38,281 nucleotides of DNA from a virus: IMG/VR virus record IMGVR_UViG_3300044629_000509, positions 1-38,281 of that record, one strand, 5' to 3'. Below are positions 1,906 to 38,281 of the stretch, one piece after another (position 1 is the stretch's first letter; each line of letters begins with the position of its first letter). Position numbers and translations under genes: made by a program. The notes beneath the pieces are model-generated. The model worked only from the letters and a program-made list of their open reading frames with translations. It was not told where the DNA came from and searched no databases.

Positions 1906-2940
1906 ATGCTGACCATTACCAAACCAAACGCGACACCGGTGGCGGTATTACCCGTCGCCGCTCCAATCGCGCAGCCGCCCAAGCTGCTCGACCGCATGCG
2001 GGCCGCGATCCAGGTGCGGCACTACAGTCTGGCGACCGAGCGCACCTACATCGGATGGGTCAAGCGCTTCATTTACTTCCACCAGAGGCGGCACCCCGCC
2101 GACATGGGCGCGCCCGAAGTCGAAGCCTTCCTGTCCGCGCTCGCCACTGAACTGGACGTGTCGGCCAGCACGCAGAACCAGGCCAAGCACGCGATCCTGT
2201 TCCTCTACAAGCAAGTCCTCGGCGTCACCCTGCCCTGGCTCGACGGCATCACCAGCGCGAAGATCAACAAGCGCCTGCCCGTGGTGCTCACCGTCACCGA
2301 AACACAAGCCCTGCTGCGCCGCCTGCCGCACGACACCAACGGCCTGATCGTCCGCCTGCTCTATGGCACCGGGATGCGCATCAAGGAAGCGCTGCGACTG
2401 CGGATCAAGGACGTGGATCTGGACCGCGGCGAGATCATCGTCCGCGAAGGCAAGGGCGGCAAGGACCGCATCACCATGCTGCCGGACGCCCTGGTGCCCG
2501 AACTCACCGGACACATCGCCGAACGCCGCCGCTGGCACGACATCGATCTGGCCAGCGGACATGCCGACGTCGAACTGCCCGATGCCATCGAGCGCAAATA
2601 CCCCAAGGCCGGAGCGCAATGGGCGTGGCAGTATGTGTTTGCCGCGCCGACCTACAGCACCGACCCGCGCACCGGCGTCGTGCGGCGGCATCACTGGTGC
2701 GAGCGCAACATCCAGCGCGCAGTGCGCACCGCCACCCAGGCCGCCGGCATCAGCAAACTAGCCCATCCGCACACCCTGCGGCATTGCTTCGCCACCCACC
2801 TTCTCGAGGCCGGCTACGACATCCGCACCGTGCAGGAGCTGCTAGGCCACTCTGACGTGGCCACCACCATGATCTACACCCATGTCCTCAACAAAGGCGG
2901 GCGTGGCGTCGTCAGCCCGCTGGATCGGGTCGCGACGTGA
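1906..2940 (+). CDS. intI: Integron integrase (IntI-type tyrosine recombinase)
   Basis: This 344-residue enzyme inserts and excises gene cassettes at attC sites, binding them as folded single strands. It has an N-terminal SAM-like DNA-binding domain (about 28-105) and a catalytic domain with the tyrosine recombinase set R158, H289, R292, H315 and Y324. It also has the extra segment found in integron integrases and not in XerCD, around residues 229-254 ([11 protein letters not shown] and following). Length is typical. AGGAG at 1891-1895 lies about nine bases before the ATG. The gene lies just after the last cassette and on the same strand as the cassettes, whereas classical intI genes diverge from the array. 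Its stop overlaps the next start (TGATG). No LexA-like box is seen upstream, so expression probably comes from read-through. Confidence 0.93.
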
Positions 2941-3104: not shown

Positions 3105-3412
3105 TGCTGCTTACCCTGCCCGCCGTCGCGCTGCAATTAGGCATTTCGCGCCGCACCCTCGAGCGCGAGATCGCCGACGGCCGGGTTCCGGTCGTCATGA
3201 TTCGCGGCGCCGTCAGAATTGACGAAATCGACCTTCAGGCATACATTCAGCAGTCCCGCATCAAGAAAACCAGACCATGCCCGTCAGAAAACGCGGCGAC
3301 CGCTGGCATGTCCGCCTTCAAATCGGCGGCCAGCGCATCGAGCGCAGCCTTGGCCCGACTGCTACAAAAGCGGACGCCCTCGACTATGAGGCCCGACTCC
3401 GCCAGGACGTAG
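3104..3412 (+). CDS. Excisionase-like MerR/Xis winged-helix protein
   Basis: Residues 1-55 form a typical excisionase-type winged helix: LPAVALQLGISRRTLEREIADGRVPVVM, followed by an arginine-containing wing and DLQAYI. Such proteins bend DNA at attachment sites and steer the integrase towards excision. The 102-residue frame overlaps the integrase gene by 136 bases. The part after about residue 58 is low in structure and probably only tolerated by the overlap. Its position directly before the integrase, with a start overlapping the preceding stop, fits a xis-int pair. It could also serve as directionality factor or repressor of int expression. Confidence 0.75.
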   Translation: MLLTLPAVALQLGISRRTLEREIADGRVPVVMIRGAVRIDEIDLQAYIQQSRIKKTRPCPSENAATAGMSAFKSAASASSAALARLLQKRTPSTMRPDSART

Positions 3413-4254
3413 TCGCCGGAAAGACGGGGCGAACCGCCCCGCGCACCATGGAAGACGCCCTGGTGCGGTGGCTGCAAGGCGAAGCGGCCCAGCTCACCAG
3501 CTACAACAACTTGCTGTCGAAAGTCAGGCTGCTGCAACCTCATGCCGCCGGGAAGCGGCTTGACGCCATCGTCAGCATTGCCGAAGACGTCAAGGCAGCC
3601 GGCATCAAAGACAAACTGGCGCCGGCCACCATCAATCGCCGGTTGGCCATCCTGCGCCGTATCGCCAATCTGGCTCACGACCAATGGGGCTGGCTCGACG
3701 CGCCCCTCGGCAATCGCATCAAACTCTTGCGCGGAGAAGTCGCCCGCCACGTTTATCTGACGCCCGACCAGGTCGAAACCCTGGCCGATCATTGCGAGCA
3801 TGCCGTCGTCGCCCGGGCGATCCGCCTGTTGGCTCGCACCGGCCTTCGCGAAGGTGAGCTACTGCGCGCCAGCACGATATTCGATGGCTGCATCGTCGTT
3901 GATGACGTCGCCCCCTACAAGCCGCGCTTGGTGCCCCTGCCGGCCGATATGCAGGACATCACCCTGCCGCTGGGCATCACCTATCACACGCTACGCACCT
4001 ACTTCGAGCGCGCCCGGTTGGCCGCTGGCCTGCCGCATGTCCGCGTGCATGACCTGCGGCATACGGCCGCGAGCTGGTGGGTGCAGTCAGGCGCAAACCT
4101 CGCCGTCGTGCGGGATCTGCTCGGCCACGCCAACTTGGCCGTTACCAGCCGCTACACACACCTGGCCTCCGGCGACCTGAAACGCGCCGCGGCGGTCATG
4201 GGGCAGAATATGCTGGAACGGGGCAAAAACGGGGCAAAAACCCCGCAAACCTAG
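3277..4254 (+). CDS. int: Phage site-specific tyrosine integrase
   Basis: This 325-residue recombinase would integrate and excise the phage through the tRNA-Leu-like site just downstream. The N-terminal part (about 1-50) resembles the arm-binding beta-sheet domain of lambdoid integrases. Residues 55-135 are the core-binding domain, and the catalytic domain carries R191 (ARTGLREGELL), H258 and R261 (HDLRH), H284 (LLGHANL) and Y293 (TSRYTH). It is distinct from the IntI at 1906: it has no IntI-specific insertion. Its last codons run through copies of a GGGGCAAAAAC repeat, also found at 4378-4399. These may be arm-type binding sites and part of the attachment region. ATG3277 has only a weak ribosome binding site, consistent with coupling to the upstream gene. 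Confidence 0.93.
   Translation: MPVRKRGDRWHVRLQIGGQRIERSLGPTATKADALDYEARLRQDVVAGKTGRTAPRTMEDALVRWLQGEAAQLTSYNNLLSKVRLLQPHAAGKRLDAIVSIAEDVKAAGIKDKLAPATINRRLAILRRIANLAHDQWGWLDAPLGNRIKLLRGEVARHVYLTPDQVETLADHCEHAVVARAIRLLARTGLREGELLRASTIFDGCIVVDDVAPYKPRLVPLPADMQDITLPLGITYHTLRTYFERARLAAGLPHVRVHDLRHTAASWWVQSGANLAVVRDLLGHANLAVTSRYTHLASGDLKRAAAVMGQNMLERGKNGAKTPQT
4216..4237 (+). repeat. 22-bp direct repeat, copy 1 (candidate integrase arm site)
   Basis: It is identical to 4378-4399 and itself made of two copies of a CGGGGCAAAA unit. The two copies flank the tRNA-like core at 4274-4316 with similar spacing, as arm-type integrase sites would. This copy is inside the end of int. Confidence 0.7.
4225..4245 (-). 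terminator. Possible terminator of the leftward late operon
   Basis: Read on the minus strand, CGGGG (4245-4241) and CCCCG (4234-4230) form a stem, followed by five T. It lies downstream of the lysis genes that end at 4433. The same bases belong to the direct repeat, so this may be coincidence. Confidence 0.4.
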
Positions 4255-36134: not shown

Positions 36135-36173
36135 GAACTATTTTCAACAATTTCCGAGGCGGCGACTTTCGCC

Positions 36174-36243
36174 TCATAACGACAGAGTGGAGGGGCGCGA
36201 CGCAGCTTTATCGCGGCGCGTCCCTTCGCACGACGGGTTAGAG
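36174..36243 (+). other. attC site of cassette D
   Basis: R'' is TCATAAC (36174-36180) and R' is GTTAGAG (36237-36243), with the crossover after G36237. The arms (GGGGCGCGACGC and GCGGCGCGTCCC regions) flank a CTTTATCGC centre, as in attC B and A. Confidence 0.87.
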
Positions 36244-36262
36244 GGCAACGGTACAGGACGCC

Positions 36263-36478
36263 ATGAATAAAGTGTTTTTCGGAGACTGCCGCGACACCAT
36301 GCGCGCCCTGATAGCACAGGGCGTGAAGGTGCAGATGTGCGTGACCTCGCCGCCCTACTTCGGACTGCGCTCATACATGCCGGATGGCGTGCGGCTTAAA
36401 CATGGCTTGCCGGATGCCGTTCGAGAGGCGGTTATTGCGGAGCTTGCAAGCCTTGGCGTACACCCTACTTCGGATTGA
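36263..36478 (+). CDS. N-terminal part of a split DNA methyltransferase (cassette E)
   Basis: This 71-residue fragment begins NKVFFGDCRDTMRALIAQGV (2-21) and has the catalytic TSPPYFGLRSY motif (28-38). Both match the first part of beta-class DNA N4-cytosine/N6-adenine methyltransferases. The reading frame stops at TGA36476-36478, just where the HNH endonuclease gene begins. The remaining domain is encoded at 37030-37980 in another frame. It cannot be active alone because the SAM-binding FGSGT motif is in the other part; it could work if the two chains associate. Confidence 0.82.
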   Translation: MNKVFFGDCRDTMRALIAQGVKVQMCVTSPPYFGLRSYMPDGVRLKHGLPDAVREAVIAELASLGVHPTSD

Positions 36479-36491
36479 TATATAATATGGT

Positions 36492-37073
36492 ATGCGAAAA
36501 GCAAACGGACAATTTGAAAAGGGCGGCCACTGGCGCGAGCCGAGGCCGTTTCGTGAGCGCGAGTGGTTGCTTGAAAACTATGTGGTGCGCCAGCGCAGCA
36601 CGGGAGACATTGCCGCCGAGTTCGGGACTACTGACGCAGCAATTCTGTTCTGGATGCGAAAGCACGGCATCCCGCGCCGCACGGTATCAGAAGCGCGGAG
36701 CCTCAAGCATTGGGGCGCGAGCGGCGCAGACAATCCAATGTGGAACAAGCGCGGCGAACTCAACCCGCGCTGGCTTGGTGGGGTCACTCCGGAGCGCCAA
36801 GAGTTCTACACCAGCCGAGAGTGGAAAGCCGCGTGTTCGACGGTATGGAAGCGCGACAAGGCGCGTTGTCGTCGCTGCGACATCCACCGAAACGACGCGC
36901 CCGACATGCCTTTCCATATTCACCACATCATTTCGTTCGCCGACAAAGAACTGCGCGGCGACCCATCGAACCTTGTGCTGCTCTGTGAAGCCTGCCATCA
37001 GTTCGTTCATTCACGGGGGAATCTGACTCGTGAATATCTACCAAAAGAGCCAGATACCGGCGCACCTGCTTGA
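36492..37073 (+). CDS. HNH homing endonuclease inserted in the methyltransferase gene
   Basis: This 193-residue protein has a HTH recognition part (about 37-60), a NUMOD-like stretch GADNPMWNKRGELNPRW (78-94) found in homing enzymes, and a HNH nuclease. The nuclease has a CRRC zinc pair (126-129), HIHHIISF (142-149), Asn160 and CEACH (165-169). Such enzymes cut a gene lacking the insert and are copied in by repair. It begins 14 bases after the first methyltransferase part and overlaps the second by 44 bases. The insert has no room for a group I intron core, and the frames are not continuous as an intein would require. It is therefore best seen as a free-standing insertion. Confidence 0.85.
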   Translation: MRKANGQFEKGGHWREPRPFREREWLLENYVVRQRSTGDIAAEFGTTDAAILFWMRKHGIPRRTVSEARSLKHWGASGADNPMWNKRGELNPRWLGGVTPERQEFYTSREWKAACSTVWKRDKARCRRCDIHRNDAPDMPFHIHHIISFADKELRGDPSNLVLLCEACHQFVHSRGNLTREYLPKEPDTGAPA

Positions 37074-37980
37074 GTTTTTCGAGCCGGCTGAAATTGGCCT
37101 TGAAGCGACGCCGGCTGAATTTGTGGCGGCGATGGTTGAGGTTTTCGCGCTGGTTCGGGAACTGCTGGCCGATGACGGGGTGCTGTGGCTGAACCTCGGA
37201 GACAGCTACAACGCGGCAGGCCGCACCGGACACGGCACGCGCCAAGGCTTCAAGCAGGGAACGAACCGGGCCAGCGCCGAGAAGGCCGACAACTGCCGCC
37301 CGAGCGTGGAAACGCTGAAGCCAAAAGACTTGATTGGGATCCCGTGGCGCGTAGCGCTCGCGCTACAGGCGGCAGGCTGGTACTTGCGGCAAGACATCAT
37401 TTGGCACAAGCCGAACCCGATGCCGGAGAGCGTGACCGACCGCTGCACGAAGGCGCACGAATACCTGTTTCTGTTGAGCAAGAGCGAGCGGTACTACTTC
37501 GACGCGCGGTCGATTGCGCAGCCGATAGCCGACAGCAGCAAGGAGCGCCTTGCGCAGCCGAACCTGCCGAACCAAGCGGGAAGCGACCGCGTGCCCGGCA
37601 AGACGAACGGCAACATGAAGGCGGTAGGCCCGCGCTTCGGCGGCAACAAGTACGGCGACGACGACCGCGAGGAAAGCAGGACAAAGAGCGGCAATGAATA
37701 CACCGGAGGCGATGGCCTTGCGAACCGTCGCAGCGTTTGGACGGTGCCGACCGTGCCCTACAGCGGCGCGCACTTTGCGACATTCCCGCCCGCGCTGATT
37801 GAGCCGTGCATCTTGGCCGGGAGCCGAAGCGGAGACACGGTGCTGGATTGCTTTTTCGGAAGTGGCACGACCGGCGAGGTAGCCGGGAACTTGGGGCGCA
37901 ACTGGATCGGGTGCGAGTTGAACCCGGACTACGCGCCCCTTCAACGGGCAAGGACGGCACAGCATGGCCTTGCCCTCTAA
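37030..37980 (+). CDS. C-terminal part of a split DNA methyltransferase (cassette E)
   Basis: This 316-residue frame continues the methyltransferase: EIGLEATPAEFVAAM (21-35), LADDGVLWLNLGDSY (46-60), HEYLFLLSKSERYYF (about 140-154) and the SAM-binding VLDCFFGSGTTGEV (271-284). The first ten residues are not methyltransferase-like and probably come from the insertion junction. GTG37030 is the only usable start and follows a G-rich run. The part before it (TSPPY) is at 36263-36478. The two could act as separate chains, as in other phage genes split by homing enzymes. The 3' end overlaps the R'' box of attC. Confidence 0.82.
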   Translation: MNIYQKSQIPAHLLEFFEPAEIGLEATPAEFVAAMVEVFALVRELLADDGVLWLNLGDSYNAAGRTGHGTRQGFKQGTNRASAEKADNCRPSVETLKPKDLIGIPWRVALALQAAGWYLRQDIIWHKPNPMPESVTDRCTKAHEYLFLLSKSERYYFDARSIAQPIADSSKERLAQPNLPNQAGSDRVPGKTNGNMKAVGPRFGGNKYGDDDREESRTKSGNEYTGGDGLANRRSVWTVPTVPYSGAHFATFPPALIEPCILAGSRSGDTVLDCFFGSGTTGEVAGNLGRNWIGCELNPDYAPLQRARTAQHGLAL

Positions 37981-38046
37981 CGTAAAAGTGAGCGGCCCGG
38001 AGGCGGCTTCATTGCCGGAGGGTCGCGCTCGACTGTTGGGTTGGGG
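37975..38046 (+). other. attC site of cassette E
   Basis: R'' is CTCTAAC (37975-37981) and R' is GTTGGGG (38040-38046), with the crossover after G38040, judged by the GGGTT context shared with the other sites. The arms GAGCGGCCCGGAGGC and GCCGGAGGGTCGCGCTC pair imperfectly. A second GTTGGGT at 38035-38041 matches the general core but not the cassette F end. Confidence 0.82.
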
Positions 38047-38070
38047 TGCCGACGACAACGGAGAAACAAC

Positions 38071-38271
38071 ATGAAAAAGATTGGCTGCATTGGACACGAT
38101 GGCGACTGCTGCAAGAACCGCGAGAGGGACAAGCGCGACGCGGCCAGGTATCGGTGGTGGCGGAAACACGCCAGCGACGACATGCAGTGGCATTTGTTCG
38201 GGCGCACCGTCAGCACGCCGAAGGAAATGGACGCCGAGACGGACAAGGCCATGAAGCGCCCCAACGGTTGA
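38071..38271 (+). CDS. Small cysteine-containing protein (cassette F)
   Basis: This 66-residue basic protein has GGAG ten bases before ATG38071. It starts KKIGCIGHDGDCCKNRERDK (2-21), with three cysteines and a histidine that could hold zinc. The block ARYRWWRKHASDDMQWHLFG (about 25-44) follows; from memory the ARYRW pattern is common in small phage proteins of unknown role. The stop codon lies inside attC. No function can be given. Confidence 0.7.
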   Translation: MKKIGCIGHDGDCCKNRERDKRDAARYRWWRKHASDDMQWHLFGRTVSTPKEMDAETDKAMKRPNG

Positions 38272-38281
38272 GGTGTGGGGC
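38259..38281 (+). other. attC site of cassette F, left half
   Basis: R'' is CCCCAAC (38259-38265), followed by an L'' region (GGTTGAG) and the stem arm GTGTGGG (38273-38279). The matching arm and R' are at bases 14-36 of the window. This is the key evidence for a circular sequence. Confidence 0.82.

Follow-up and report, generated by a model that had tools for sequence, protein, structure and literature searches.

Selfish nucleases that insert into genes without destroying them usually rely on introns or inteins. A third way, in which tails dock the two halves of a broken protein, was reportedly suggested by the NrdA protein of Aeromonas phage Aeh1, the tails of which are said to have been found essential for the interaction and assembly of its chains by Crona et al. 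in 2011. In the fractured genes reportedly described by Dassa et al. in 2009, a study cited in PMC12350094, gene halves carry split-intein parts around a free-standing nuclease, in some cases of the Vsr type. The Aeh1 nrdA gene is split by mobE, with its function kept, and enzymes in two chains are also encoded by the phage T4-type gene 43A/43B and by T4 gene 60/39, whether or not a nuclease gene sits at the break (PMC2988022). The assembly of such split phage chains has been called a fascinating open question of structure and function (PMC2988022). As to the genomic setting, the accessible part of one report describes phage genomes with an integron integrase, attC sites and methyltransferase cassettes (PMC9892861), while that of another describes intein, LAGLIDADG domain and ShiLan domain insertions, which move between divergent DNA methylases of actinophages (PMC9957025).

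The locus described here lies within a window corresponding to a whole virus record of 38,281 bases, and consists of a methyltransferase gene split around a free-standing endonuclease gene. Its features are the following:

36263-36478, plus strand: N chain of the methyltransferase, 71 aa, stop codon TGA at 36476-36478
36263-36376, plus strand: N-chain body, from the start to SPPYFGLRSY, catalytic motif IV; 89% amino acid identity to the intact relative L002
36377-36478, plus strand: N tail, 33 extra codons and the TGA stop, missing from intact enzymes
36371-37092, plus strand: inserted element, from DNA alignment with L002, its true ends being uncertain by a few codons
36492-37073, plus strand: free-standing HNH endonuclease gene, 193 aa; PF01844, E 5.6e-11, with the conserved HNH residues in the family alignment
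37030-37980, plus strand: C chain of the methyltransferase, GTG start; N6_N4_Mtase, E 3.4e-44
37030-37092, plus strand: C tail, about 21 extra codons opening the C chain, the first 44 nt overlapping the end of the HNH gene
37093-37980, plus strand: C-chain body, with GDSY, the target region and the AdoMet motif DCFFGSGTTG, covered by the same N6_N4_Mtase match (E 3.4e-44)

A preliminary description of this DNA claimed a split gene accompanied by a free-standing HNH enzyme; this is confirmed by the Pfam matches and by the N-HNH-C order. The claim that the frames of the two parts differ also holds, N, HNH and C occupying three different ones, and so does the start of the second part within the end of the HNH gene; the distance of 14 bases given between the first part and the HNH gene was nearly right, the HNH ATG being found 13 nt downstream of the N-chain stop. 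The order of motifs is that of beta-type N4/N6 DNA methyltransferases, the N chain supplying the SPPY motif IV, ahead of the target region, and the C chain the FGSGTT AdoMet motif, behind it. With these two motifs on separate chains, a single part alone should not be a working enzyme. As in Aeh1 nrdA, an HNH gene lies within a coding region, free-standing between two enzyme parts, with no splicing element, a complete empty site and extra tails at the break; as in the T4-type gene 43A/43B and T4 gene 60/39, a phage enzyme is encoded as two chains, and a nuclease at the break is optional. Unlike Aeh1 nrdA, for which one site is known, the present arrangement concerns another enzyme, and its tail pair was found at five sites, accompanied by one of several nucleases or by none.

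The split gene is carried by an integron cassette. The relevant features are:

1906-2940, plus strand: integron integrase gene; TIGR02249, 450 bits, cut-off 265
36171-36246, plus strand: attC-like site preceding the split-gene cassette, related at 70% to the 81-nt repeat at 729-809
36238-38040, plus strand: integron cassette with the split gene, delimited from the sequence by the complementary ends TTAGAGGGC / GCCCTCTAA
37972-38048, plus strand: attC-like site closing the cassette, identified from the sequence, with the C-chain stop codon inside

At the sequence level, the cassette thus has an attC-like site, complementary ends and an array near an integron integrase, and cleavage in the preceding site would fall between 36237 and 36238. 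Bottom-strand folding of the two flanking sites is no better than that of shuffled sequences (z -0.8 at 36171-36246 and -0.65 at 37972-38048), unlike that of other sites of the array, which fold well. Positions 38256-38281 and 1-50 form, when joined, a complete attC-like hairpin; the genome is therefore probably circular or permuted, with the cassette array running over the ends of the record. The integron integrase gene has the same orientation as the cassettes and is positioned beyond the last of them, and is followed by a second tyrosine recombinase gene (3277-4254). Neighbouring cassettes, at 57-749 and 1231-1875, have as products a second methyltransferase and a DNA modification protein of the Mom type; the genes carried by the array resemble an anti-restriction set. 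The window is recognised as a phage genome by its terminase, portal and tail genes, so that the nesting previously proposed, of an HNH gene in a cassette in an integron in a phage, was right in substance. This setting is of the published kind, with integrase, attC sites and methyltransferase cassettes as in the phage integrons of PMC9892861; unlike those described in the accessible part of that report, where no split cassette gene appears, the cassette gene is here split. Integrons in phages and working nuclease-split phage enzymes being already known, the new part is represented by the tails.

The closest intact relative found, L002, provides the empty site. Its similarity to the N chain extends over residues 1-38, and its DNA aligns with positions 36264-36370 and 37093-37506 of the window, where it has about 21 nt in place of an insert of about 722 nt. 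As this alignment ends outside the HNH gene, the insert extends beyond that gene and also takes in the first 21 or so codons of the C part and, in the N part, about codons 39-71. A search for the uninterrupted methyltransferase, proposed earlier as a means of defining the junctions, thus places the insert at about 36371-37092. Loss of much of the enzyme, which had been named as grounds for dismissing a split gene, did not emerge: N body and C body jointly span the entire intact enzyme, and intact homologues show that no part is lost.

The size of the insert bears on the question of an intron. HNH genes are frequent in group I introns, and the insert exceeds the size assumed in the preliminary description, which considered only the HNH gene when calling it too short for an intron core; the nuclease-free insert of L231 (see below), however, is only about 190 nt long and still leaves two frames. 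A self-splicing intron carrying the HNH gene and yielding one continuous enzyme appears very improbable: the insert gives no Rfam match to an intron RNA core up to E 1, only about 121 nt lie upstream and 19 nt downstream of the HNH gene, and what is conserved in the flanking codons is the protein, not the RNA. Identity with a group I or II intron was rejected on the Rfam result, in agreement with the earlier reading as a split gene rather than an intron.

The N-HNH-C order was also found in 18 other IMG/VR contigs, corresponding to about 13 distinct sequences, and in the bacterial MAG L110, with HNH identities of 40-80%, which indicates that the split arrangement is not due to chance. Contig L083, which matches the window without a difference for 4042 nt before diverging, was left out as non-independent. 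The relative frames of N, HNH and C differ from locus to locus, and no HNH relatives were found in plasmids. In L231, the gene is split at the same position (site A) and carries both tails, in two separate frames, with a 29-nt spacer without nuclease. In L093 (3173-5197), N and C lie in one frame, open across the whole HNH gene (674 codons), which could yield one chain with a nonsense middle.

Other variations were observed among these genes and their relatives. The C parts of L003 and L005 belong to near-identical split genes; the one block in which they differ precedes RNRRSVWTV and is probably the region of target recognition. In L220 (2872-4482) and L286 (from 2992), a LAGLIDADG-like domain lies seemingly in frame within the methyltransferase, after FALQ, with no obvious intein ends. 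In L104 (about 4598), L111 (about 4599) and L345/L346 (about 1929), an HNH relative is found directly upstream of a methyltransferase broken at SPPY, where a short insertion that opens with TGA (TGAC, TGAGGAT, TGATTAG) interrupts the frame after the SPPY codons. Such insertions, present in no other locus examined, may represent an altered cleavage site shielding the carrier. Programmed +1 frameshifting at small stop insertions, considered as a general idea, was dropped, because the next frame in L345 is closed as well.

Both tails are conserved, with consensus sequences of about VRLK.DLT......V..EL...GI for the N tail and IY.KSDIP.DL..FFEPAE for the C tail. Tail models have no match among about 207 intact relatives, alignments to isolate phages pass over the tails, and no Pfam family corresponds to them. 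Short-pattern scans, not exhaustive, of the virus collection, isolate phages and plasmids returned no intact gene with both tails. The most variable codon positions in both tails are the third ones, indicating that the tails are kept as protein. The N tail is predicted as strand-helix-strand in both AlphaFold2 runs (pLDDT about 54-84), at an overall confidence which is low; the input was the natural N-to-C read-through of L093, with C-tail rows misplaced in the first alignment and the second one restricted to the C part.

An insertion immediately past the catalytic motif might be expected to destroy the methyltransferase, the parts then being decaying remnants, and the presence of an HNH relative upstream of an SPPY-broken gene in L104, L111 and L345 would be in line with this. 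A dead enzyme is nonetheless improbable, since about 13 distinct site-A loci keep open, conserved reading frames for both parts, the additional tails are conserved as protein, changes fall at third positions, and starts and stops suit three tightly packed genes. Where dS is unsaturated, dN/dS is 0.09-0.46 for the N bodies and 0.15-0.29 for the C bodies, low values which argue against a dead enzyme, although part of this constraint may predate the split.

The tails are linked to the HNH gene more than to the enzyme. When similarities of tails, HNH and bodies were compared across 13 loci by Mantel tests, N-tail similarity was found to track that of HNH (r 0.78; partial r 0.77 given the C body), and less so that of the bodies (r 0.46 for the N body and 0.27 for the C body). 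The C tail, which is short, tracks HNH only moderately (r 0.49, against 0.54 for the N body and 0.11 for the C body). The same pattern may be appreciated in single loci: L003 is closer to the window than L096 in the N body (84% versus 68% identity), while L096 is closer in both the N tail (70% versus 31%) and HNH (80% versus 47%). L098 and L101 share one DNA block, about 96% identical, which starts with the codons that follow SPPYFGLR and takes in both tails as well as HNH. Beyond it, the enzymes are about 70% identical; dS is saturated for the C bodies and 0.09 for HNH. Judged from this alignment, the block shows that tails and HNH moved together, a transfer that would fit HNH homing.

Models based on the site-A tails only, with enzyme residues trimmed off, were used to search 47,070 frames. 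Outside site A, the best matches of both tails fall at the same loci, namely L240, L296/L300 and L109, with E-values of 0.001-0.016 for the N tail and of 0.001-0.003 for the C tail, except in L109, where the C-tail match is weak (E 0.5). A tail profile from all sites was too variable for scanning; a narrower one led to a further site, E. The positions are as follows:

Site A: immediately behind the catalytic motif SPPY; HNH gene, or none in L231
Site B (L240, L296, L300): between IGLEETPDC and CGRCY; HNH gene on the opposite strand
Site C (L109): between RNKRTCWKV and WTISTKPF; HNH of another type
Site D: mycobacteriophage methylases, of a different methyltransferase family; mostly without nuclease, with a Vsr-type one annotated in Seagreen
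Site E (L345/L346): between GDSY and VKPKDL, with both tails; Vsr-like gene on the opposite strand

On the whole, the tail pair occurs at five positions, in two methyltransferase families, and with several nuclease types or none.

Matches of the N-tail consensus in 50,697 phage records have weak E-values (0.6 and above), and nearly all of them are located at the extreme end of a methylase fragment from mycobacteriophages. In Ksquared, it closes with TKLRLRADLTPEQVDHVVARLREAGVEID and a stop, and the next frame opens with MRDFNVDEIPADIRPYFEEVRG, corresponding to the C tail, followed by the remainder of the enzyme. The site-A models locate the mycobacteriophage tails at the expected ends, each tail being found in 84 mycobacteriophage records, and PopTart_63 represents the intact form of the methylase. 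On the two flanks, Jebeks agrees with Malithi at 99.8 and 99.4% identity, but the Malithi spacer contains a 705-nt insert; at the corresponding place, Seagreen has an annotated Vsr-type nuclease on the minus strand. Taken with L231, this comparison shows that split and tails persist without a nuclease. The methylases of site D are the same mycobacteriophage ones in which insertions are described in PMC9957025; the accessible part of that study mentions neither split nor tails. A homologous tail pair common to several sites and nucleases was likewise not found among the open-licence papers searched.

Malithi gp54 and Fishburne gp58 (L325, L327) are annotated as plus-strand 'hypothetical proteins'; these annotations are probably misread, the Seagreen counterpart being annotated as a minus-strand Vsr-type endonuclease. 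The mycobacteriophage C part (L322, at about 2746, L325, L326, L327, L328 and L329) contains, after HPT, an insertion of 4 or 7 nt beginning with a stop (TAGAGCC, TAATGCC, TAGC), and the mycobacteriophage enzyme thus spans three frames. With this further stop and frame change, its function in mycobacteriophages is less clear.

The Vsr-type nucleases in some spacers recall the fractured genes, in which halves likewise flank a free-standing nuclease, and where a split intein is said to accompany it. Protein trans-splicing by tails acting as split intein halves is, however, the least probable of the explanations considered: tails of about 33 and 21 aa are far below the length of an intein half, have neither a conserved Cys/Ser opening the N tail nor a terminal Asn in the C tail, and correspond to no Pfam family, so that, unlike the intein parts of fractured genes, they are short and not intein-like. 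An intein identity of the tails was rejected on these grounds. L109 has complete inteins, separate from the tails. A minus-strand methyltransferase of this locus has, in addition to the tailed split, two insertions that resemble inteins.

The order of events is a separate question. According to the preliminary description, the methyltransferase was cut in two by the HNH gene; the split itself stands, but this may be the wrong order, as the tails recur with other nucleases or with none. A tailed two-gene methyltransferase might have come first, nucleases having later entered its short spacer, with the tails still docking the chains. L231 and most mycobacteriophages, split and tailed without nuclease, are in line with such an origin, as is a single tail pair shared by different nucleases on either strand, and the same uncertainty is noted in a review for phage gene 43A/43B (PMC2988022). 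We consider it rather unlikely, since five positions require five separate origins of a tailed split unless tails move, tails and HNH moved jointly in L098/L101, and deletion of the nuclease explains the nuclease-free forms equally well.

The explanation we favor, and hold to be reasonably probable from the comparisons above, is a mobile, tail-bearing insertion in a beta-type N4/N6 methyltransferase gene, with tails that would assemble a two-chain enzyme. The insertion would carry the free-standing HNH gene, its left tail closing the N chain and its right tail opening the C chain; the two tails may bind each other, or jointly complete a small alpha/beta unit. Their contact would unite the catalytic chain with the AdoMet-binding chain, so that two working chains are plausible and the insertion would be of little cost to the phage. 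Since the tails recur in other split methyltransferases, at other positions and with other nucleases, they probably hold the broken enzyme together; as they also recur with none, the HNH gene itself is likely to be a replaceable passenger, and a nuclease could be acquired, lost or swapped in the spacer. Orphan methylases of phages are thought to protect phage DNA from host restriction, and the enzyme would probably shield the phage DNA in this way.

The similarity to Aeh1 extends to the way of working only: comparison of the tails with those of Aeh1 NrdA-a and NrdA-b gave no match, and a common ancestry is unsupported by it. More tentatively, and with somewhat less than even expectation, the tail pair may be regarded as a transferable adapter for split proteins that would re-join the chains non-covalently and make up the constant part of a class of mobile elements. 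Were this so, unrelated nucleases could occupy coding sequence widely, without RNA or protein splicing. The tail pair occurs in mycobacteriophages isolated on M. smegmatis, and, if the proposal is true, the single case of the Aeh1 type would become a general mechanism, directly testable, and a possible natural and compact means to split and re-join proteins.
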